This document shows positions 16,777-34,968 of a stretch of 40,935 bases of DNA, in pieces. Both the position numbers and the translations under genes were made by a program. Under the pieces are notes generated by a model. That model searched no databases and was not told the origin of the DNA. It worked only from the letters and a program-made list of their open reading frames with translations. Each line of letters starts with the position of its first letter. The first letter of the stretch is position 1. Source of the DNA: Salinivenus lutea (GTDB taxonomy: Bacteria > Bacteroidota > Rhodothermia > Rhodothermales > Salinibacteraceae); the NCBI GenBank assembly GCA_002894685.1, contig NCRC01000029.1, positions 1 to 40,935 on the forward strand. Reading direction: 5' to 3'.

Positions 16777-18258
16777 CTACGCAACAATCGTGCAGGTGCC
16801 CGTCTCGTAGGCCTCGCGCAGCGCCTCGGTCGCGTCGGCGCGAAGGCGCTCCGGCTCGGTGTGGCTGGGGCCCCGAACCGCCACGCCCACGCTGATCCCG
16901 CCTTCGAGCGCGCCCGTCTCGTCGGCCAGGGCGTCCTGGACGGCCACGGCCCACTGCTCCGCCTCGTCGGCGTCCCCGCGCAGAAAAATGCCGTAGGTGA
17001 GTTCGCCAAACCGTTCGATTCGCTGTCCCGGGGCCTCCTGCTCCAGTCGGGCCCGGAGGCGGCGCTCCGTCGTCGCAACAACATCGTCCCCGCGACGGGC
17101 AATCGATTCGGCGCGGTTCAGGTGGACGAGCGCAAGCGCGAGATCCTCCTCCGTCGCCTGGGCCGCCTCCATCTCCTCCGCGATGATGGTGCGGCGGGGC
17201 GGCGGAAGGTCCTCCTCGTTGCCCGTCTCCGACCCGTCGGCGTCGCCCGTCGGGGCCTCCGGCGAGTCCGCACCTTGCCCCGGGGCGCCCGTGCCGGTCT
17301 GATCGGTGTTCATCGGGGCCGGCGGGTCGCCGCCCAGGAGGAGGTCGGCCATCTCGGCGTAGTGCTCCAGAAGGCGGCGCGCCCGCGACGCGGCAAGGTC
17401 GGTCGCCCCGTCCGTGTCCGCCAGCAGGAAGATCGTCGCGGGATCATCGGGGCGCTGCACCGGGGCCACCGCCATCTGCGTCAGTTCGGCGGGCGGGCGG
17501 GGGTAGTACCCGAGGGCCGAGCGCGACTCGTCGTCGAGCGACTGCACCGCCACGGCCTGACGCGACATGCGGGCCGACAGCAGGGGCCGCTGCGTCTCGA
17601 ACGTGCCGGTCGTCTGAACGTCCGCCGTCACGCTGGCACACGCCTCGATCCGGTACGACAGGGTCACGTCCTCCTGCACAAGCAGGCAGACGGTGTGGGC
17701 GCCCAGGGCCGCCCGGGCCGACGCAAGAAGCGGCGAGAGCCCCGCGTCGTCGGACGAAGACGCCGTCGTGGAGCCGCGCTCGTCCTCCGCGACCGGTTCG
17801 TCGGCCTTCGATGCCGATCGGGACTCCTCGGTCGAGTCGTCCGTCTCCGACGCCTCCTCTGGCGATGACACGGCCGGGTGATCGAGGGCCGGAGGGGCCG
17901 GGTTCGAGGACGGCGTGCGGGTTCGCGGGTCGCCCGTCGGGCCGGCGGACGTGGACGCAGCGGGAGACGGCTCCTCCGGCTCCGCCGAGGGGTCGGTGGC
18001 CGGCGGCGCGCCCTCGGCCCCTTCGGGCCGGACGTCCACAATCCCAAACTGCTCCAGGTCCTCCTCCGGATCGGGCTCCTCCCGGCGGGTCGGCTCGCGC
18101 CGCTGGTGGCTCTGGTAGCGGTTCCACATCTGCCACCCGATGAGGCCCAGCGCCCCCACGAGCGGCAGCCCCGCCCCGACGTACAGCCAGGAGCGATCGA
18201 AGACGAACGCCAGCACGGCGAGCAAAATGGCGAGGAGAACGAGAAAAACGCGAAGCAT
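16777..18258 (-). CDS. membrane protein with GAF-like and degenerate GGDEF-like domains
   Basis: This 493-residue protein has two N-terminal membrane spans (about residues 2-20 and 26-44), then about 120 residues of very acidic, Pro/Ser/Thr-rich linker. A folded region at about 170-312 resembles a GAF-type sensor. After a second linker, residues 345-493 align in order with a diguanylate cyclase domain: LALALVHLNRAESIARRGDD, then RRLRARLEQEAPGQRIERF, then GELTYGIFLRG at the active-site hairpin (residues 418-422), and GGISVGVAV. The GGDEF signature is replaced by GELTY, and the upstream metal-binding aspartate is Asn or Glu. It is therefore probably catalytically dead and may bind nucleotide or a partner. 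The fold call is mine by pattern and needs a profile search. Confidence 0.65.
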   Translation of the reverse strand: MLRVFLVLLAILLAVLAFVFDRSWLYVGAGLPLVGALGLIGWQMWNRYQSHQRREPTRREEPDPEEDLEQFGIVDVRPEGAEGAPPATDPSAEPEEPSPAASTSAGPTGDPRTRTPSSNPAPPALDHPAVSSPEEASETDDSTEESRSASKADEPVAEDERGSTTASSSDDAGLSPLLASARAALGAHTVCLLVQEDVTLSYRIEACASVTADVQTTGTFETQRPLLSARMSRQAVAVQSLDDESRSALGYYPRPPAELTQMAVAPVQRPDDPATIFLLADTDGATDLAASRARRLLEHYAEMADLLLGGDPPAPMNTDQTGTGAPGQGADSPEAPTGDADGSETGNEEDLPPPRRTIIAEEMEAAQATEEDLALALVHLNRAESIARRGDDVVATTERRLRARLEQEAPGQRIERFGELTYGIFLRGDADEAEQWAVAVQDALADETGALEGGISVGVAVRGPSHTEPERLRADATEALREAYETGTCTIVA

Positions 18259-18373: not shown

Positions 18374-19609
18374 TCAGTCCGGGACGCTCGCGGAAGCGTC
18401 CCCCACGGCCGAGGCGATGGCGTCGGGCACCCCACGCTCCATCGGGAGGGTGTCGGCCTCGTCCGGCAGCTCCACCGACGGCAGCCGGAGGGGCGGCTCG
18501 TACGCGTCGGGCAGAGGGTTGGGCTCGGCCCAGAGGGTGCCGTCGTAGCTTTCCATGAGCACCCGATCGCCGGCCCGTCCCTTCACATAGCTGCGGTTGA
18601 GCGGCACCTTGCCGTGGGGCGTATCGAGGACGTAGTCGGGGATGGCGAACCCGGAGGTGCGCCCCCGCAGCTCCCGCAGGATGTGCATGCCGGTCTCGAT
18701 GGGCGTGCGGAGGTGCGCCGTGCCGCCAATCAGCTGTGCCTGATACAGATAGTAGGGGCGGACACGCATCCGGACGAGGCCCTCGTTCAGGGCCTTCATG
18801 GTTTCCACGTCGTCGTTGATGCCGCGCAGGAGCACCGTCTGGTTGCCGACCGGGACGCCCGCGGATTTGAGTCGGTCGATGGCCGCGGCGGCGTCGTCCG
18901 TAAGCTCTTTCGGGTGGTTGAAGTGGGTGTTCACCCAAATCGGATGGTGGCGCGCCAGCAGATCGCACAGCGCGTCGGTGATGCGGTACGGGAGCTTCAC
19001 CGGCATTCGCGTGCCGAACCGGATGAGCTCGACGTGGTCGATGGCCCGCAGCCGGCTCAGCAGCCACTCCAGGTTGTCCTCGTTGAACGTGAGCGGGTCG
19101 CCCCCGGTGAGGAGGACATCGCGGATTTCGTCGTGGGCGGCAATGTAGTCGAGGGCCGCCTGGTGCTCATCGGTCCGCATGAAGAAGCTGGCGTCGCCCA
19201 CCATGCGCTTGCGGAGGCAGTAGCGGCAGTAGACCGCACACTCGGCCGTGATGCAGAAGGCTACCCGATCCTCGTAGTTGTGGATCAGGTTCTTGACCGG
19301 GGAGTGGCCGGTCTCGTCGAGCGGGTCCATGCCGTTCACGATGTCGGGGCCCAGTTCGTCCATCGTGGGCACCACCTGCCGACGGATGGGGCACGACGGG
19401 TCGTCCGCATCCATCAGGTGGGCGTAGTACGGCGTCACGTTCCACCGGAAGATGTCGTCCGTCTTTTCGATCGCGGCCCGCTCGTCCGGCGTGGGATGGA
19501 TCCAGTCCGCCAGGGCCTCGGCGCTGTGGATGCGGTTCTGCATTTGCCAGCGCCAGTTGGTCCAGTCCGCAGGGGTGGCGCGCGCTGGAATGGTGGACGG
19601 GGCAGGCAT
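18374..19609 (-). CDS. KamA-like radical SAM aminomutase, altered substrate site
   Basis: The 411-residue protein is closely related to lysine 2,3-aminomutase, a radical SAM and PLP enzyme that shifts an amino group from the alpha to the beta position. The radical SAM cysteines are Cys124, Cys128 and Cys131 (CAVYCRYC). LLTGGDPL at about residue 166, TRMPV, and VGNQTVLLRGIND fit the family closely. Two places differ from lysine 2,3-aminomutases. The QCDL segment that holds the substrate's side-chain amino group reads QAQL (residues 290-293). The PLP-lysine loop, normally DAPGGGGK, is shortened to DTPHGK (Asp329 and Lys334 kept). The substrate may therefore not be lysine. The ATP-grasp ligase gene lies directly upstream, 50 bases away. 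The strand, spacing and shared theme suggest an operon. Confidence 0.85.
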   Translation of the reverse strand: MPAPSTIPARATPADWTNWRWQMQNRIHSAEALADWIHPTPDERAAIEKTDDIFRWNVTPYYAHLMDADDPSCPIRRQVVPTMDELGPDIVNGMDPLDETGHSPVKNLIHNYEDRVAFCITAECAVYCRYCLRKRMVGDASFFMRTDEHQAALDYIAAHDEIRDVLLTGGDPLTFNEDNLEWLLSRLRAIDHVELIRFGTRMPVKLPYRITDALCDLLARHHPIWVNTHFNHPKELTDDAAAAIDRLKSAGVPVGNQTVLLRGINDDVETMKALNEGLVRMRVRPYYLYQAQLIGGTAHLRTPIETGMHILRELRGRTSGFAIPDYVLDTPHGKVPLNRSYVKGRAGDRVLMESYDGTLWAEPNPLPDAYEPPLRLPSVELPDEADTLPMERGVPDAIASAVGDASASVPD

Positions 19610-19659
19610 GCGGTGCGGGGGGTGCGTGAATAGACACTTCTATTAGACGGGGACGTGGC

Positions 19660-20685
19660 CTAATCGTTGCCGGCTCCCGGCGCCGCATCGGTTCCCGTAA
19701 GCCGCACGAGCCCTCGCTGAAAAATCTCCGCCAGATAATCAATGTAGTCGCGCCCCATCAGCTCCGCGATAATGGCGAAGGTGTCGTCGGGCGCAAATGT
19801 CGGCAGCGGGTTGACCTCCAGAAACCAGGGCTGTCCGTCGGCGTCGACCCGGAAGTCGGCCCGGGCAAAGTCGCGACAATCCAGATGGTCGAAGAGGCGG
19901 AGCGTGTGGGCCTGAAGCGCCTCCTCCAGCGTCGCGTCCAGCGTGCCCCCGAGTTCGTAGTCCCATTCCTGTTCGGCGGCGGGGCTGCCCCGATGCTCTA
20001 GGGCGTGCACCCCGATGCCCGAGGCCGGCTCCACCCCGCGCTGCAGCACCGGCAGGGCCTCGGGCGGGTCGTGCCCCACCACGGCGACGGTGAACTCGCC
20101 CCCGCCCGACACGAACCGCTCGACCAGCGCGTCCTGGGCGTAGGTTGTCGTCACCCGGTCCACCGCGGCGCGCAGGGCCTCCACATTCTCCACCCGACTG
20201 TCCGGCGTAATGCCCTTCGAGGTGCCCTCGTGGCGGGGCTTCACGAAGAGCGGGAAGGGGGGCAGATCGTCGGGGTCGACCGCCGTCGCCGCGCCGTACG
20301 TCCGATGCGGCGGCGTCGGGACCCCCGCCGCCGTCACGAGGTCTTTCGTCCACGCCTTGTCGAGCGTCAGGGAGAGCGTGAGGGCGTCGGACCCGAGGCA
20401 CGGGATGCCCGCCATCTCCAGGAGAATGGGCGCGTAGGCCTCCCGGTTGCGACTGTGGGCGCCCTCCGCAATGTTGATGGCCGCGTCGAGTGTGAGCCCG
20501 CGGTGAAGCCGGTCGCGCAGGTCGGAGGCCGGGCCCACGCGGACGGGGGTGTGGCCGAGATGCTCGACCGCCGCCGCGAGAGTGTCGACGGTTTCTGCCG
20601 GCTCATACTCCGCATCGGCATCCGGCGGGTCGTCGTCGCGCCAGGGGTAGCGGTCGAACGTGTCGTAGATCAGTCCAATTCGCAT
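19660..20685 (-). CDS. ATP-grasp ligase, D-Ala-D-Ala ligase-like
   Basis: This 341-residue protein has the D-alanine-D-alanine ligase fold of ATP-grasp enzymes, which join a carboxylate to an amine through an acyl phosphate. The ATP-binding parts are clear: FPLFVKPRHEGTSKGI (about 145-159), QDALVERFVSGGGEFTVAVV, and the metal site ARADFRVDADGQPWFLEVNPLPTF (Asp277, Glu290, Asn292). The N-terminal segment reads NIAEGAHSRNREAYAPILLEMAG in place of the HGxxGEDG loop of true D-Ala-D-Ala ligases, so a different substrate is likely. I chose the ATG at 20685 because MRIGLIYDTF is the first strand; an upstream ATG would add a non-conserved tail. It precedes the KamA-like gene and is divergent from a small unknown gene. 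Confidence 0.85.
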   Translation of the reverse strand: MRIGLIYDTFDRYPWRDDDPPDADAEYEPAETVDTLAAAVEHLGHTPVRVGPASDLRDRLHRGLTLDAAINIAEGAHSRNREAYAPILLEMAGIPCLGSDALTLSLTLDKAWTKDLVTAAGVPTPPHRTYGAATAVDPDDLPPFPLFVKPRHEGTSKGITPDSRVENVEALRAAVDRVTTTYAQDALVERFVSGGGEFTVAVVGHDPPEALPVLQRGVEPASGIGVHALEHRGSPAAEQEWDYELGGTLDATLEEALQAHTLRLFDHLDCRDFARADFRVDADGQPWFLEVNPLPTFAPDDTFAIIAELMGRDYIDYLAEIFQRGLVRLTGTDAAPGAGND

Positions 20686-20780
20686 TGGCGTGGGGTCCGT
20701 GGCCTGACGGGCGCGGTCTGCCCTCAACAGACGACCCTCGGCGTCGTTCATCGTGGCCTTCTCGTCACTCCCGCCTCGCC

Positions 20781-21098
20781 ATGACTCAGAAAGCACTGAT
20801 TGTTCGGACGGGCCCCAACGGGCACGACGGCCTGGAGGCCCTCAACATTGAACTGAAGCGCGGGTGGCGAGTGGCACAGGTGGCCCCGATGGGCGGCGCG
20901 GCCGGCCCCGCCGAGACGCCATGCCACGCTGCGCTCGTCGTTCTGGAGCGGGGCACCGCGGACCGGCCCGCCCTGGCCGTGGAGGCACTGGAGCGCCTCG
21001 AGCGGGGCGGGGAGTCGGTCCTGGAAGACGTCATCGAGGAGCCCGACGAGGTGGTGGACGACAACGGCACAGAGCCGCCCGACGCGCCCCGCTCCTAG
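20781..21098 (+). CDS. hypothetical small acidic protein
   Basis: I do not recognise this 105-residue protein. It begins MTQKALIVRTGPNGHDGLEALNIELKRGWRVAQVAPMGG, which looks like a short alpha/beta fold, with HAALVVLERG as a second strand. It ends in an acidic, disordered tail (EEPDEVVDDNGTEPPD). It has no signal peptide. It is divergent from the ATP-grasp gene (95 bases apart), and a hairpin follows. Confidence 0.55.
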   Translation: MTQKALIVRTGPNGHDGLEALNIELKRGWRVAQVAPMGGAAGPAETPCHAALVVLERGTADRPALAVEALERLERGGESVLEDVIEEPDEVVDDNGTEPPDAPRS

Positions 21099-28788: not shown

Positions 28789-30348
28789 CTAGCGGGGCAC
28801 GATGTCCACCACGAGGGGCAGGTGGTCCGAGGTTGCCTGGGTGTCGTTGCGCTCCACCCCGAACGCCGACCGGCGGTCCGGTGCGAGGGTGCTGGTGCGC
28901 AGCACGTACTCGTTGACGATCTCTACGACGCTATCCGAAACGTAGACGTAGTCGAGGCGCGACGGGGGGAAGCTGCTCTCCGCGTCGACCCACGTGGCGT
29001 GGGACGGGGCGCCCGTCTGCCGCGGATTGGCGTCGAGCAGGTCCGTGCCGTCCCAGTCCGGCGCCGCCGACGGCCCGAACGCATCGTTGTTGACGATCTG
29101 GCCGGTGCGCAGGGTGGTGGGCTGCTGCGGGTCGCCGACAAAGTTCATGTCTCCCGCAATGACGATGGGCGTGTTGTCGGGCACCGCGAAGGGACCCTCC
29201 CCGGCCTTCACGTCGCGTAGAAAGCCCGCGATGCCGTCCACCACGCGCTGCCGCCGAGCGTCGCGGGAGGGGGAGGCGTCGGCGTAGTTGCAGCAGGGCG
29301 GGTGCGTGACGATGAGGAGGAGGGGCGAGCCGAGCGCAGACTCGGCGTCGAGGAGAAACGCCCCGCTCCGGTTGTCCTCATACCCCGGAATGGCGTGGCT
29401 CGCCTCAATCGGATACTGGCTCACGGCCACGAGGTCGAGCCCCTGCTTGGCATGGTGCCACCCGTCGGTGCCGGTAAGGGCCGCCACCCGATCGGCCGTT
29501 TCCTGCGAGGACTGGTCGTACACCTCCGAAAACCCGATCACGTCCGCGTTCACGTTCCGGAGCACGCGCCCGTAGCTGTCGCGGGCCTCGGACGCGAAGA
29601 GGCGCCCCTGCAGCACGTTGAACCCCAGCACGCGCAGGCCGCGGTCCGGCTTCTGCAGCGAAACCTCCGGGAGCGGGGGCAGGTCGGCCTCCGAGAAGGC
29701 GTACCCGACCCCGCCCTCCCGATCCGGCAGTTGGTCCTCCGGGCCGGCCAGCGCCACGCGGATCGAGTCGCCCGCAAACAGGGACGAATCGCCGATGGGG
29801 CGCGCCGAGCGGTCCAGCGACAGCTCGAAGGTGGAGGCCCGCACCGTGGGCAGCGCCGAGAGCCCAACATCCGCGTGCCCGATCTCCGACGACGAGCCGT
29901 TGGCGTAGACCTGCCCGCTCCGCTCCCCGAAGGTCCAGGTGAGGTCGGCCCCGAGGCCGCGCGTGCGCCGGCCCGTGGTCGTGTCGTTGTCGGTGTCGAG
30001 ATAGAGCGTCAGGTCGTTGCTTTCCGACAGGTTGATCGGACGCCCCGTCTCGAAGCGGAGGAAGAGGTGCTCCGCGTCGTGGCTGACCCAGAGGCGCCCC
30101 AGATCGATCTGGTCCCCATCGCCCGAGGGGTCGCTGTGGCGCACCGGGACCGGCGCCCAGTCCTCCCCCGACTCATCAATCACGATGCGGGCCGGCTCGG
30201 TCGGATAGGAGAGGGACGGCTCGTCGGTCTCTGCCGGGGGGTCGTCCGGCTCGGTCGGCGGGTCGCCCGAATCGTCCATGCCGTCCGGCCCCGAGCAGCC
30301 GATCAGGAGCAGGACGCAGGCGAGAAGAAGGGAGCGCGAGAGGGACAT
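28789..30348 (-). CDS. endonuclease/exonuclease/phosphatase-family lipoprotein
   Basis: The 519-residue protein starts MSLSRSLLLACVLLLIGC, with the lipobox LIGC, then an Asp/Pro/Glu linker of about 30 residues. Residues 50-200 look like a carbohydrate-binding, CBM9-like sandwich: IVIDESGEDWAPVPV, LGRLWVSHDAEHLFLRFETG, LTLYLDTDNDTTTGR. Residues 230-519 are an endonuclease/exonuclease/phosphatase fold: VLGFNVLQG, VIGFSEVYDQ, VIAGDMNFVG and TSDHLPLVVDI hold the catalytic Asn, Glu, Asp and His. Substrates could be nucleic acid or phospho-lipids at the cell surface. It is divergent from the decarboxylase gene (201 bases). Confidence 0.82.
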   Translation of the reverse strand: MSLSRSLLLACVLLLIGCSGPDGMDDSGDPPTEPDDPPAETDEPSLSYPTEPARIVIDESGEDWAPVPVRHSDPSGDGDQIDLGRLWVSHDAEHLFLRFETGRPINLSESNDLTLYLDTDNDTTTGRRTRGLGADLTWTFGERSGQVYANGSSSEIGHADVGLSALPTVRASTFELSLDRSARPIGDSSLFAGDSIRVALAGPEDQLPDREGGVGYAFSEADLPPLPEVSLQKPDRGLRVLGFNVLQGRLFASEARDSYGRVLRNVNADVIGFSEVYDQSSQETADRVAALTGTDGWHHAKQGLDLVAVSQYPIEASHAIPGYEDNRSGAFLLDAESALGSPLLLIVTHPPCCNYADASPSRDARRQRVVDGIAGFLRDVKAGEGPFAVPDNTPIVIAGDMNFVGDPQQPTTLRTGQIVNNDAFGPSAAPDWDGTDLLDANPRQTGAPSHATWVDAESSFPPSRLDYVYVSDSVVEIVNEYVLRTSTLAPDRRSAFGVERNDTQATSDHLPLVVDIVPR

Positions 30349-30549
30349 AGAACAGCCGTGGGCGGTCCGGAGAGATAGGCGCATCCGTAGGATACGAGTC
30401 AGCCCGGAGGGAGTCACACCACCACCGGCCATGCCGTCCGGAGTAGGGGGAAGCATTCGCGAAAACACGGTCCGGGCCCCCTCGCCCCGAAAAGATTGGG
30501 CGCCCGGGCCGTAGAAGGGGTCCACTGCGCTCATAAACTGGTTCGTCTC

Positions 30550-33009
30550 ATGCCGGACTCCTCGACCGACCCGCTCCACAAAGCCGCCTTTCTGGGGCCG
30601 AAAGGCGAAAACGCCGACGAACTGGAACGGATGCTCCTGGAGGTGCTTCGCGACCACGTCTTTTGGCGCCGCAACTTCCACCCGAGCGACCCGCGCCTGA
30701 TTTCCGAGACGGACCGGCGCACGGAGGCCTTCGACGAGATGTCGGCACAGCTCCGCGACGAGCTGTCCCAGATCCTCGCAAAACTGAAGCGGGCCGCCCC
30801 CCTCTACTCGCCCCGCCAGGTGGCGCACATCGTAAGCGACCCTTCGCTGCCGGCCTTTATCGGGTACTTCGCCGGGCTGCTCTACAATCAGAACAACGTG
30901 GTGGCGGAGGTCTCGCCCGAGACCGTGCGTGAGGAGAGGGCCTACTTCCGATCGCTGGCCGAGATGGTGGGCTACCCGGACTTTCTCCCCGAAACCCTCC
31001 CCCCCGACGCCCGCGCCCACCGCGCCGACTACAGCTGGGGCCACCTCTGCAGCGGCGGCACCGTCGCCAACCTGGAGGCCCTCTGGATTGCACGCAACAT
31101 CCGGCTCTACCCACTGGCCGTCCGCCTCGTCGCCCACCAGACGGACGACTTTGCGGGCTTTGCGGACCTGAACGTGACGACGGCCCAGGGGGACCGGGCG
31201 CCCCTCCACAGCCTCTCGACCTGGCGCCTGTCGAACCTCCCCATCGACGCCATCACGGACCTCCACCTCCGCATCAAGGCCTCGCTGGGCGAGGACGACC
31301 CGGCCCGCGCCAAGGCCTTCCAAGAGGCCCTCCCCAGCGTCCGCAAGGCCGGGCTCGCGTCGTTTCTCTTTCAGTACAACGACGCCTTCCCCGACGACCC
31401 GGCCCGCCTGCCGAGAGTGCTCATCTCTCAGGCCACGCACTACTGCTGGCAGAAAAACATGGACCTGGTGGGCCTGGGCGCCGACGCCCTCGAGACCCTG
31501 CCCGTCGACGACCGCATCCGGCTCGACACCGAGGCGCTCCGCGAGCGGCTGCACGCCTGCATCGAGCAAAAGCAGCCCGTCCTCGGGGTGATCTCGATCG
31601 TGGGCACGACCGAAGAAGGCGCCATCGACCCGCTGCACGAAATCGAGGCGGTTCGCGACGAGGTGGCCGACGCGGGCCTCACGTTTTGGCACCACGCCGA
31701 CGCCGCGTTCGGCGGCTTCTTCGCCTCGATGCTCCCGAAGACCGACGACGGCTCGTTCGTGGCCCCGGACGAGCTCTCCCCCGACCTCGCGGGCCCCGAC
31801 GGCCTCCTGCCCATCGACGATGCGGAGGCCCTCACGGCCATCGCCGACACGGACTCCCTCACCATCGACCCGCACAAGTTCGGGTACGTGCCCTACCCGG
31901 CCGGGGCTGTCCTTTTTCGCGACTACCACGTGCGCGACGCGATCGCTTACAAGGCGCCCTACCTGGCGGACGACGACCAGGCGGGCTTCGGCGGCTTCCT
32001 CGGCCAGTGGACGCTGGAGGGCTCCCGCCCCGGCGCCGCGGCCGTCAGCTGCTACCTCTCCCAGGAGCTGGTGCCCCTCACGCCCGACGGGCACGGCCGC
32101 TTCATGCGCAACTGCATCGAGGCCAACCAGGACCTCGTGTCGGCGCTCCAGAATCGGTTTTCCGACGCCAACGCCGAGCTCACGCTTCGTCCCTTCCACC
32201 CGCCCGAGACGGTCGCCTTCTGCTTCGTCGTGGCCCCCGACGCGGAGCTCGAAAGCATCGAGGCCCTGAACGAGCTCACCGAGCGGATCTGGCAGCGCAT
32301 GACCGTCGACGGCCGCGAGGACATCAACCAGTACGCGTTCCTCCTCTCCCGCACCGAGGTCGACGTTAGCGACTACGCCCACGTGCTCGACAACATCCTG
32401 TCGCCCGACGTGCTGGCCGACGCCGTGGAGAACGACGCCGGCCTCACCCTGCTGCGCACCTGCCTCATGAACCCGTTCCAGTCCGACTGGAACGACGCGG
32501 AGACGCCCTTTGCCGAGCGGGTGGCCGACTTCCTCTACGACGTTGCCGTGGACGAGTACCTGGAGCAGGTGCTCCCGCCCGCCCCGCGCCCGAACAACAC
32601 GCGCCGCCCCGTCCTGGTCGTGGAACAGACGCCGCGGGCCCGCGAGGGCCTCGCCCGGCGCCTGGAGCAGGACGAGAAGGTGATCGCCCACTTCGACGTG
32701 CGCTCCTGCAGCGCCGCCGACCTCGACGGCGAGACCAACGGCCGCCTCTCCACGGCCCACACCACCATCTTCCACGTCAACGCCGAGGCGCCGGAGCGGA
32801 TGCTGCGCCTGATGCAGCGGTTGCTCGACACCGGCGCCGTGCCCCCCGAGCGTCTCATGGCCGTCGTAACGGGCAATGGCGCCGCCGCCCTCCCCGACCG
32901 AATGCGCCCCCTGGAGGTGCCTCCCCACAACCTGATCGCCGAGGACGAGCTCTCCGCCGGCGCCCGCCGCCTGATCGTGCGCCTCAGCACCCAGCGCGCT
33001 GCCGTGTAG
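30550..33009 (+). CDS. PLP-dependent group II decarboxylase with receiver-like C-terminal domain
   Basis: The 819-residue protein is much longer than a typical group II decarboxylase (about 460-560). The catalytic part, about residues 60-660, matches the glutamate/aspartate decarboxylase family: SPRQVAHIVSDPSLPAFIGY, NQNNVVAEVSPETV, SGGTVANLEAL, FWHHADAAFGG (Asp384 holds the PLP ring) and DPHKFGYVPYPAGA (Lys443 binds PLP). It most resembles the PanP-type aspartate decarboxylases, but the substrate is not proven. The last 135 residues, from Pro687, have the layout of a response-regulator receiver (RPVLVVEQTPRAREGLARRL, TTIFHVN, RLMAVVTGNG), but the phosphorylated aspartate is missing. The start ATG is set by the family-like N-terminal helix. 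Confidence 0.85.
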   Translation: MPDSSTDPLHKAAFLGPKGENADELERMLLEVLRDHVFWRRNFHPSDPRLISETDRRTEAFDEMSAQLRDELSQILAKLKRAAPLYSPRQVAHIVSDPSLPAFIGYFAGLLYNQNNVVAEVSPETVREERAYFRSLAEMVGYPDFLPETLPPDARAHRADYSWGHLCSGGTVANLEALWIARNIRLYPLAVRLVAHQTDDFAGFADLNVTTAQGDRAPLHSLSTWRLSNLPIDAITDLHLRIKASLGEDDPARAKAFQEALPSVRKAGLASFLFQYNDAFPDDPARLPRVLISQATHYCWQKNMDLVGLGADALETLPVDDRIRLDTEALRERLHACIEQKQPVLGVISIVGTTEEGAIDPLHEIEAVRDEVADAGLTFWHHADAAFGGFFASMLPKTDDGSFVAPDELSPDLAGPDGLLPIDDAEALTAIADTDSLTIDPHKFGYVPYPAGAVLFRDYHVRDAIAYKAPYLADDDQAGFGGFLGQWTLEGSRPGAAAVSCYLSQELVPLTPDGHGRFMRNCIEANQDLVSALQNRFSDANAELTLRPFHPPETVAFCFVVAPDAELESIEALNELTERIWQRMTVDGREDINQYAFLLSRTEVDVSDYAHVLDNILSPDVLADAVENDAGLTLLRTCLMNPFQSDWNDAETPFAERVADFLYDVAVDEYLEQVLPPAPRPNNTRRPVLVVEQTPRAREGLARRLEQDEKVIAHFDVRSCSAADLDGETNGRLSTAHTTIFHVNAEAPERMLRLMQRLLDTGAVPPERLMAVVTGNGAAALPDRMRPLEVPPHNLIAEDELSAGARRLIVRLSTQRAAV

Positions 33010-33090
33010 ACGCCCCGCGAGAGGATCTTCCGCATTTGCCTCGCCGTAGCACTCCTTCCTCTTTCTTCCTCCCACCGGCCTTTGGGCCCC

Positions 33091-33744
33091 ATGCGCTCTA
33101 CCGTCCGTCGCCGCACCGGCACCCTGTTCGTCCTTGCACTCGGAAGCCTGCTCCTGGCCGCCTGCGGAGGCGATACGTCCAGGTCGTCGTCCCAGACCGC
33201 GTCGAATGACCTCTCGCTGGACGTGGACACGGTGCTGACCGACACCACCTACACGCTGGTCAACCAGGACAGCACGACCCTCTCTCTTCCCGATGCGTTC
33301 CTCGGGACCCCGGTCGTGCTGGGCTCCATCTACACGAACTGTCCCAACATTTGCCCGCAAATCACGGCCAACATGAAGGCCGTGCGGGACTCCCTCGAAC
33401 ATCCAGAGGCCGTCCAGTTCGTGTCGGTGACCTTCGACCCGCGGCGGGACACGCCCTCCCGCCTCGCGGCCTACCGCGCCCAGTATGACCTCACCGACAC
33501 GTCCTGGGAGTTCCTGACCGGCGACCGCGAAACGGTCGATCGCTTCCTGGATCGACTGGGGGTGCGCCGCCGCATAAAGGGCACGGATCGGGAGTTTCCC
33601 GCCGCCGACACGACGGAGTACATCTTTACCCATTCGAATCAGATCACGCTCATTGACGCCCAGGGACGTGTACGGGCGGAATACGGGGGAAGCCAAACCC
33701 CGCCCTCCCTCATCGTACGCGATCTCGAAAAACTCCAGTCCTGA
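33091..33744 (+). CDS. SCO1/SenC-family copper chaperone, lipoprotein
   Basis: The 217-residue protein is a Sco1/SenC thioredoxin-fold copper chaperone that helps load the CuA site of cytochrome c oxidase. The signal peptide has a lipobox LLAAC, so it is anchored in a membrane. Copper ligands are complete: the CPNIC motif (Cys-x3-Cys) in GSIYTNCPNICPQ, and the late histidine in IFTHSNQITLID. VSVTFDPRRDTP is another family block. The ATG at 33091 is chosen; the longer frame starts with TTG. It heads a three-gene run with a PCuAC-like and a SafE-like gene (3 and 30 bases apart), a known type of oxidase-assembly neighbourhood. Confidence 0.9.
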   Translation: MRSTVRRRTGTLFVLALGSLLLAACGGDTSRSSSQTASNDLSLDVDTVLTDTTYTLVNQDSTTLSLPDAFLGTPVVLGSIYTNCPNICPQITANMKAVRDSLEHPEAVQFVSVTFDPRRDTPSRLAAYRAQYDLTDTSWEFLTGDRETVDRFLDRLGVRRRIKGTDREFPAADTTEYIFTHSNQITLIDAQGRVRAEYGGSQTPPSLIVRDLEKLQS

Positions 33745-33747
33745 GTC

Positions 33748-34254
33748 ATGGTTGATGTAGGCGATCACCCGAGCGCACTGGTGTTCAGTCTGGTCGTTGC
33801 AAGCCTCTTGCTCTGGGGGTGCCAGGGCAACTCCCCATCGGAGGAGGCGTCGGGGCCGCCGCCGCTGCCCGATGGCGAACTGGCCATCGAGGGCCCGTGG
33901 GTGCGCCCCGCCCCGGCCGGGAGCAGCAGCGTGCTCTCCATGACCATCGCGAACGGCCAGTCTACCCCCGACACGCTGCTCGACGTGCGCGCCCCAATCA
34001 TTGATAGCACCCAGGGGTACGCCGCGGCCTCGGACACCAGCGAGGGCCCGAGGGCGCTGTCGTCGTTCCCGGTGCAGGCTCGAAGCCGGGCCGCCCTGGC
34101 TCCGGACAGCCAACACGTCGCCCTGCGGGGCCTCCAGCAGCCCCTGACCGAGGGCGAGTCCCTCGTGCTGACCCTGGAGTTTGCGCAGAGCGGGCTTCAG
34201 CGCATCCGGGCGCCCATCCAGTCCACCCCGCCGACAGACACCCCGTCGTCCTGA
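33748..34254 (+). CDS. PCuAC-like lipoprotein lacking the usual copper ligands
   Basis: This 168-residue lipoprotein (lipobox LLWGC) has the PCu(A)C-type fold pattern: IEGPWVRPAPAGSSSVLSMTIANG, then LLDVRAPI, then DSQHVALRGLQQPLTEGESLVLTLEF. PCuAC proteins carry copper(I) to oxidases with a His-x10-Met...His-x-Met set. Here the first His/Met pair is absent (STQGY replaces the ELHE-like segment) and the last site reads HVAL, with Ala where the second Met should be. Only one of the four ligands (His) is left. It begins three bases after the Sco gene, which keeps its own copper site. The signal peptide start is an ATG; the function is inferred from fold and neighbours. Confidence 0.7.
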   Translation: MVDVGDHPSALVFSLVVASLLLWGCQGNSPSEEASGPPPLPDGELAIEGPWVRPAPAGSSSVLSMTIANGQSTPDTLLDVRAPIIDSTQGYAAASDTSEGPRALSSFPVQARSRAALAPDSQHVALRGLQQPLTEGESLVLTLEFAQSGLQRIRAPIQSTPPTDTPSS

Positions 34255-34284
34255 CGACTGCCCCCCTTCCTTCCCTCCGCTCCA

Positions 34285-34968
34285 ATGAACTGGCTGCTCG
34301 CCGGATGTGCCTTTGGGTTTGTGGGGAGCCTGCACTGCATCGGCATGTGCGGGCCCCTCGCGCTGAGTTTGCCGGGCGAGGGACAGGGGCGCGTTCAGTT
34401 CGCTGTGGAGCGCCTGCTCTACAATCTGGGGCGGGCCATGACATACACCGCCCTCGGGGGCGTGGTGGGCGCGGCGGGGCACGTCGTCTCGCTGGCGGGC
34501 GCCCAGCAGGCCCTGTCGGTCGCCGTAGGGGGGCTCTTTGTCCTGGCCGCAACCGTGCCGTGGGTAAGCCGCCAGGTGACCCGGTTCGAACAGGCCCCGT
34601 CGGCCCTTCTTCAGCGGGTGATGGCGCCCATCGGGACGCTGTACCGGCGGGGAGGATCGGGCAGCCTGCTCATCGTCGGGCTGCTTAACGGGCTCCTGCC
34701 GTGCGGCTTCGTGTACGCAGGGCTGGCCACGGCCCTCACCGCCGGGACCGCCGCGGCGAGCATGCTCTTCATGGCGGGCTTCGGGCTCGGCACCTTCCCC
34801 GCCATGCTGGGCGTGAGCCTCGTGGGACGGGTCGCGAGTGCCGCCTGGCGCACCCGACTGCAGCGCCTCGTGCCCGTGGCGCTGGCGCTCGTGGGGCTTC
34901 TCCTCATCCTTCGGGGGCTCGGGCTGGGCGGAATGATTAGCCCCGCCCTCTCAACGCTGGGGCCGTAG
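34285..34968 (+). CDS. SafE/DsbD_2-type membrane protein
   Basis: The 227-residue protein has six predicted membrane spans and matches the sulfite exporter SafE/cytochrome-c-biogenesis DsbD_2-type family. Both halves carry the family's conserved cysteine/glycine corners: GSLHCIGMCGPLALSL near the N-terminus and NGLLPCGFVYAGLA in the second half. Relatives sit near cbb3 oxidase genes and are thought to act in copper or thiol handling. It follows the PCuAC-like gene by 30 bases, with a pyrimidine-rich leader. No oxidase subunit genes are in the window. Confidence 0.82.
   Translation: MNWLLAGCAFGFVGSLHCIGMCGPLALSLPGEGQGRVQFAVERLLYNLGRAMTYTALGGVVGAAGHVVSLAGAQQALSVAVGGLFVLAATVPWVSRQVTRFEQAPSALLQRVMAPIGTLYRRGGSGSLLIVGLLNGLLPCGFVYAGLATALTAGTAAASMLFMAGFGLGTFPAMLGVSLVGRVASAAWRTRLQRLVPVALALVGLLLILRGLGLGGMISPALSTLGP

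Follow-up and report, generated by a model that had tools for sequence, protein, structure and literature searches.

To our knowledge, radical S-adenosylmethionine (SAM) 2,3-aminomutases have been characterised for just three amino acids. In the lysine 2,3-aminomutase (LAM; KamA/AblA) of Clostridium subterminale, known from structure 2A5H, the side chain of the substrate lysine is bound by Asp293 and Asp330 and its carboxylate by Arg134, while EpmA and AblB are the textbook users of beta-lysine. The locus described here lies in a 40,935-nucleotide stretch of Salinivenus lutea DNA (contig NCRC01000029.1; the window, in what follows, is this whole stretch), where a gene for a KamA-family radical SAM enzyme dependent on pyridoxal phosphate (PLP) stands next to a gene for an ATP-grasp ligase with the fold of D-Ala-D-Ala ligase (Ddl). 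Both folds, their conserved catalytic residues, a change in the substrate pocket of the aminomutase and the pairing of the two genes in two bacterial phyla are established computationally, and we put at roughly 60% the probability that the two genes form a two-step pathway, in which a beta-amino acid would be made and then joined to another molecule by ATP-grasp ligation. On the minus strand the ATP-grasp gene comes first and the aminomutase gene follows 50 bases further downstream; with this spacing and a common strand, the two are probably carried on one transcript. The features concerned are the following.

19660-20685, minus strand: Ddl-fold ATP-grasp ligase gene, start ATG at 20685 (PF07478, 92.2 bits; Z 28.7 to DdlA, 8evv)
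19610-19659, minus strand: 50-base spacer from the ligase stop to the aminomutase ATG
18374-19609, minus strand: KamA-family radical SAM/PLP 2,3-aminomutase gene, 411 amino acids (TIGR00238, 338.1 bits; Z 40.9 to 2a5h)
19217-19240, minus strand: CxxxCxxC radical-SAM cluster motif, Cys124 to Cys131, from the translation
18722-18742, minus strand: QAQLIGG, residues 290-296, in which Gln292 replaces LAM Asp293, from the alignment
18608-18625, minus strand: PLP-lysine loop DTPHGK, residues 329-334, in which Asp329 corresponds to LAM Asp330 and Lys334 to the LAM PLP lysine, 337

The aminomutase, the only KamA-family match in the Salinivenus lutea genome, is a distinct new subfamily within a known kind of enzyme. 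It passes the general KamA model (TIGR00238, cut-off 199.2 bits) and falls short of the models for AblA (TIGR03820, 426.5 bits against 525.4), glutamate 2,3-aminomutase (TIGR04368, 424.5 against 650), EpmB (TIGR03821, 245.1 against 369.3) and the arginine 2,3-aminomutase BlsG (TIGR04468, 442.3 against 600), the last of which nevertheless gives it its best NCBIfam score. Its predicted structure superposes on 2A5H over 329 residues at 1.7 A with 44% identity, the second-best structural match reaching a Z of only 13.8; parts of the radical-SAM loop at residues 125-141 are modelled with a confidence (predicted local distance difference test, pLDDT) below 50. With LAM the enzyme shares the fold, the three cluster cysteines, the PLP lysine and the counterparts of Arg134 and Asp330. 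In an alignment of 32 rows spanning both phyla, with records titled Salinibacter, Rhodothermales, Balneolales, Deltaproteobacteria and Myxococcota among others, Cys124, Cys128 and Cys131, the cysteines that a first-pass annotation made from the sequence had singled out, are invariant, as are Lys334 and Gln257, and Arg133 (LAM Arg134) is Arg in 31 rows and Cys in one. A tree places 16 paired rows on one side of a branch and 10 reference rows on the other with a support of 100/99, and the BlsG rows form a group separate from the paired ones; four long-branch rows (Bradyrhizobium, EpmB-like, Leptospira and Thioflavicoccus) were left out of this tree, as an earlier one that included them was hard to read.

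The most telling difference from LAM is in the substrate pocket, where YQAQL of the aminomutase aligns with YQCDL of 2A5H, so that Gln292 stands where the clostridial enzyme has Asp293. The first-pass annotation had read this change in the single sequence, and it proves to be family-wide: the residue is Gln in 48 of the 49 aminomutase rows aligned from the class Rhodothermia, with a gap in the remaining one, and in all 32 rows of the two-phylum set, as opposed to Asp in 10/10 close references (LAM, two AblA, a Deinococcus KamA, two BlsG, an Embleya relative and three rhizobial KamA proteins). Asp is also found at 293 in the distant EpmB-like, Leptospira and Thioflavicoccus rows, and Arg in the KamA of Bradyrhizobium barranii. 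Asn or Val takes the place of LAM Arg112, and further residues that set the family apart from the ten references include N107, L132 (beside Arg133) and T297. The PLP loop, DTPHGK, aligns with DAPGGGGK of 2A5H and is two residues shorter, and its D329, T330, P331, G333 and K334 are kept in 47/49 class rows (two gaps) and in the whole two-phylum set. The shortening is thus as real as the first-pass annotation had it; the same two-residue-shorter loop occurs, however, in BlsG and in the KamA of Sinorhizobium/Rhizobium, and therefore it is not diagnostic of this family. BlsG, in fact, shares with the aminomutase this loop and the best model score, and yet is its mirror image in the pocket, with Asp at 293 and Thr at 330 where the aminomutase family has Gln and Asp.

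The partner is an ATP-grasp enzyme of the Ddl fold and is not the Ddl of the cell wall. Its PF07478 domain scores far above the gathering threshold of 24, and its model matches Ddl structures over residues 35-369 (298 residues aligned to the best of them, 8evv, at 2.9 A). The Arg/Asp/Glu/Asn site of ATP-grasp enzymes is kept as R312, D314, E327 and N329, the last three, which bind the metal, being invariant in 30/30 rows. Unlike Ddl, the ligase has no HGxxGEDG loop, the aligned stretch reading IAEGAHSRNREA, and the family carries in its place an AEG stretch with invariant E111, R116, R118 and E119; the combination of a missing loop and a retained metal site, put forward in the first-pass annotation, is therefore borne out. 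It also remains well below the D-Ala-D-Ala ligase model (TIGR01205, 106.3 bits against 245.65), and its invariant R188, E190, K194, R253 and H264 are not common to the Ddl of the same genome, which is encoded separately (G000:C6) and carries HGGAGEDG at the loop; a profile alignment (hhalign) of the ligase with Ddl extended only from residue 118 onwards. A role as the cell's own Ddl was rejected based on this separate gene and on the finding of another Ddl above the family cut-off in 14 of 15 genomes checked, the fifteenth (genome G020) having a match below the cut-off. With regard to the start of the ligase, the longest open reading frame, counted from the first start codon, spans 19660-20796. 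Because conservation in the class alignment begins only around residue 38 of that frame, and its model has a pLDDT below 50 at residues 1-15 and 27-32, the ATG at 20685 is the better start; the two lines of evidence agree in preferring it to 20796, as had been proposed earlier.

The pairing of the two genes is conserved across two bacterial phyla. We searched samples of 146 genomes from the class, 394 from the phylum and 377 from Myxococcota, and took as aminomutase orthologues, in the class, matches of at least 61% identity, other matches having at most 40% apart from short fragments, and in Myxococcota those of at least 60%, the next group having at most 51%. In the class, the aminomutase orthologue was found in 57 genomes and the ligase orthologue in 56; both are present in 55, the aminomutase only in 2, the ligase only in 1 and neither in 88, shared ancestry being ignored in these counts as in the other pairing counts and the correlations given below. 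The two genes lie within 5 kb of each other in 43 of these 55 genomes, 110-616 kb apart on the same contig in 4 and on different contigs in 8 (in 7 of these 8, which were inspected, the partner is not in the fetched stretches), so that 12 class genomes retain both genes at a distance greater than 5 kb, and such joint retention argues for a joint function. Of the two aminomutase genes found without a ligase, one (genome G124, the other being in G020) runs into a contig end, and the only genome with a ligase and no aminomutase (G133) is 87% complete. Outside the class, no aminomutase orthologue was found in the phylum sample, where other KamA proteins with an E value below 1e-90 are at most 50% identical. 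In Myxococcota, by contrast, 62 of the 377 genomes carry the aminomutase and all 62 also carry the ligase, 7 have the ligase only and 308 have neither. Fifty-nine of the pairs lie within 3 kb, and of the other three, one (G685) has the tail of the ligase next to the aminomutase where the contig ends and two (G456 and G457) have the genes on different contigs. Six of the seven ligase-only assemblies were inspected, and three of these (G627, G730 and G787) contain part of an aminomutase. The doubt raised at first, namely that the pairing might not be conserved, is clearly dispelled by these figures (55/57 class carriers and 62/62 Myxococcota carriers with both genes).

Named records gave a similar picture. 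The closest one, from Salinivenus iranica CB7, has an aminomutase 100% identical in the identity table (99.5% by tblastn) and a ligase 96.3% identical to those of the window. Of 80 named-record loci, 63 have the ligase upstream of the aminomutase and in the same orientation, with less than 150 bases between the two alignments in 51 of them, and 3 show another arrangement; among the 28 loci that titles and neighbours grouped as Myxococcota/Deltaproteobacteria and similar, 25 belong to these 63. The pairwise distances of the aminomutases and the ligases are correlated (0.81 over 59 pairs), also within each group (0.66 over 24 pairs and 0.83 over 35 pairs), and in each case 0/2000 permutations gave a value as high.

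If the two genes do form a pathway, the radical SAM/PLP enzyme would take a polar L-amino acid, cationic or amide, and shift its alpha-amino group to C3 to yield a beta-amino acid, the ATP-grasp enzyme would turn a carboxylate into an acyl phosphate and then form an amide bond, and the beta-amino acid would finish in a dipeptide-like conjugate; what we infer here is that both reactions, the amino shift and the ligation, take place, that they do so in this order and that the two enzymes share a metabolite. More tentatively, it is possible that the aminomutase has a specificity other than for lysine, arginine or glutamate, for example for an amide or a shorter cationic amino acid, and that the product is an undescribed beta-amino-acid dipeptide. 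No description of such an aminomutase-ligase pair was found in the open-access papers searched, as judged from titles and the beginnings of abstracts, a body that most subscription papers fall outside.

Several findings weigh against the two-step pathway. Genome G020, which is 99% complete, has the aminomutase and no ligase orthologue, and in three of the ligase-only Myxococcota assemblies (G673, G752 and G778) the gene directly after the ligase is MurJ and the stretch contains no aminomutase; therefore each gene apparently can occur alone. No ligase is present in the fetched stretch of 14 of the 80 named-record loci, and the disregard of shared ancestry in the pairing counts and distance correlations points the same way. 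No annotated ATP-grasp gene was seen near the KamA genes of Deinococcus, Leptospira, Xenorhabdus and Bradyrhizobium LCT2, and no KamA is annotated within 5 kb of the ATP-grasp gene of strain NGR234, which speaks against the generality of such a neighbourhood. Finally, LAM Asp330 is retained throughout the family as the invariant Asp329. The first-pass annotation had recognised that another acidic residue in the pocket would count against a changed substrate, and this residue does weaken the case for a loss of lysine specificity, while the replacement of Asp293 by Gln stands. Its interpretation is thus supported in part, by the invariant Gln, by the Ddl-fold ligase that is not a Ddl and by the conserved pairing, and loses ground with the kept Asp329 and with a loop that is not specific to the family; the compatible solute, peptide or cell-wall part that it offered as products are candidates.

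Because one of the two pocket acids is kept, lysine could still be the substrate, and the enzyme might be a plain LAM, able to work with Gln at 293, that supplies the ligase with beta-lysine, in which case the chemistry would be known and only the ligation new. The retention of both Asp330 and Arg134 (as Asp329 and Arg133) is what such an enzyme would display, the 44% identity to 2a5h over the structurally aligned residues is in keeping with it, and in one Myxococcota genome (G591) a KamA of the LAM type, in which both Asp residues are present, does sit beside an ATP-grasp gene. We regard this explanation as unlikely, given that every family row with a residue at 293 has Gln where 10/10 close references have Asp, and that the AblA score does not reach its cut-off.

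The users of beta-lysine were looked for in 24 of the 119 aminomutase carriers, Salinivenus lutea included. KamA might supply beta-lysine for the modification of elongation factor P (EF-P), since EpmB is also a KamA-family protein and its model gives the aminomutase 245.1 bits; that score, however, is below the EpmB cut-off, EpmA/GenX exceeds its own cut-off of 286.9 bits in 0/24 carriers (the best matches reach at most 264.5 bits, in frames of more than 500 amino acids that resemble lysyl-tRNA synthetases), and an ATP-grasp partner has no role in EF-P beta-lysylation. This explanation was therefore rejected for lack of an EpmA above the cut-off in the carriers checked, and is the least probable of those considered here. 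A compatible solute of the N-epsilon-acetyl-beta-lysine type would suit the halophilic genera to which several carriers belong by their record titles (Salinivenus, Salinibacter, Longimonas halophila), and an acetylated lysine has been reported in Salinibacter ruber (PMC4685198). The compound reported, however, is N-alpha-acetyl-alpha-lysine, an alpha-lysine derivative, and AblB, unlike in AblA systems, is above its cut-off in none of the 24 carriers, the nearest match being in genome G018 (197 against 205 bits). A review names potassium as the main means by which Salinibacter ruber balances salt and describes its organic solutes as relatively low (PMC1224877), a mild argument against a bulk osmolyte in this genus. 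The acetyl-beta-lysine solute was thus rejected on the absence of AblB above the cut-off in these carriers, and we hold it to be very improbable, as is the supply of beta-alanine to pantothenate by a natural alanine 2,3-aminomutase. The latter would make sense for the 10 of 57 class carriers in which PanD is missing; PanD is present, however, in the other 47, Salinivenus lutea included (and in 115 of the 146 class genomes), so that beta-alanine supply is not a general need of the carriers and was set aside as a general explanation.

The neighbours of the pair in Myxococcota suggest yet another use, in which the product would go into or onto the cell envelope, for example as part of a peptidoglycan precursor flipped by MurJ. 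Of 33 loci, 21 contain a MurJ-type gene (cluster 1), in most cases as the gene immediately downstream of the pair, and of 16 genomes checked, 14 have their best MurJ match within 2.5 kb of the aminomutase, G457 has it beside the ligase and G456 has none; the Ddl fold of the ligase would also fit such a role. On the other hand, a MurJ query had no match in 58 class stretches around both genes, and MurJ follows the ligase without an intervening aminomutase in G457, G673, G752 and G778. CstA-like (18 loci) and caprolactamase/hydantoinase-like genes (17 loci), both below their model cut-offs, recur about equally in Myxococcota, so that the adjacency of MurJ may reflect the gene order of a lineage. 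As the link to the wall would come solely from MurJ as a neighbour in that one lineage, we find an envelope role clearly less probable than the plain-lysine explanation, and the two-step pathway ending in a conjugate remains the reading we prefer.

KamA genes of other types were also found beside or near ATP-grasp-type genes and serve as precedents for the proposed pathway, in four settings: a Thioflavicoccus plasmid, Bradyrhizobium barranii, Sinorhizobium/Rhizobium plasmids and the Myxococcota genome G591. These KamA types differ from the aminomutase family at residues 293/330 (D/D, R/S, D/C and D/D, respectively), and the ATP-grasp proteins are different as well. On the Thioflavicoccus mobilis plasmid (locus L213, 2476-7957), genes annotated as diaminobutyrate transaminase, SbnA, ornithine cyclodeaminase and a Ddl-like ATP-grasp protein are present, the last following SbnA and ornithine cyclodeaminase and abutting a convergent KamA of another subfamily; this looks like a small cluster for a diaminopropionate/beta-amino-acid peptide. 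The Bradyrhizobium barranii plasmid (L215, 195-4960) has in a row a distant KamA with an Arg/Ser pocket, a gamma-glutamyltransferase, a seven-transmembrane protein and a Ddl-like ATP-grasp gene, the KamA and the Ddl-like gene thus being separated by two genes, and ATP-grasp genes related to this one occur on several rhizobial plasmids. On the Sinorhizobium/Rhizobium plasmids, one KamA neighbour is annotated as belonging to the biotin carboxylase subunit family. In G591 (L226, 1-2745), the gene adjoining the LAM-type KamA encodes a second type of ATP-grasp protein, and related proteins of about 700 amino acids in other genomes (L233 and L235) appear by eye to be tandems of two ATP-grasp units. 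A further precedent is a Kitasatospora locus of the blasticidin type, where the gene two places downstream of blsG is annotated 'ATP-dependent carboxylate-amine ligase'. The recurrence of KamA and ATP-grasp neighbours in other subfamilies suggests that Ddl-like ligases may have been recruited more than once for beta-amino acids.

Other genes around the pair were also recorded. Directly downstream of the aminomutase in the window, a protein of 493 amino acids (16777-18258, minus strand) has no Pfam match above the cut-off and a C-terminus that resembles, by eye, a degenerate GGDEF domain; it is the commonest class neighbour besides the pair itself, its cluster being present in 17 fetched class genomes. 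In two class loci (L079, 7304-9463, and L071), the ligase abuts an enolase-superfamily gene, possibly a hint of a dipeptide product, whose protein has 3iji as its best PDB match, with L-Ala-D/L-Glu epimerase among the others, and stays below the NCBIfam cut-offs. At L064 (6471-8764; also L059, family f3), the ligase gene stands apart from the aminomutase, and there the open frames of the ligase and of a threonine ammonia-lyase gene overlap. No third conserved partner was accepted, the enolase-superfamily gene (two class genomes) and the threonine ammonia-lyase gene (L064) being too narrow in their occurrence. Elsewhere in the window, a 1897-residue open frame (28789-34482, minus strand) ends in an endonuclease/exonuclease/phosphatase domain, and is perhaps a large secreted nuclease.

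A single diagnostic change in the pocket of the aminomutase, together with one ligase tied to it over two phyla, points to a hidden metabolite. If the proposed specificity and dipeptide product are true, they would apply to 57 of the 146 class genomes and 62 of the 377 Myxococcota genomes sampled, and the aminomutase and its ligase make up a two-gene system that is open to expression and testing.

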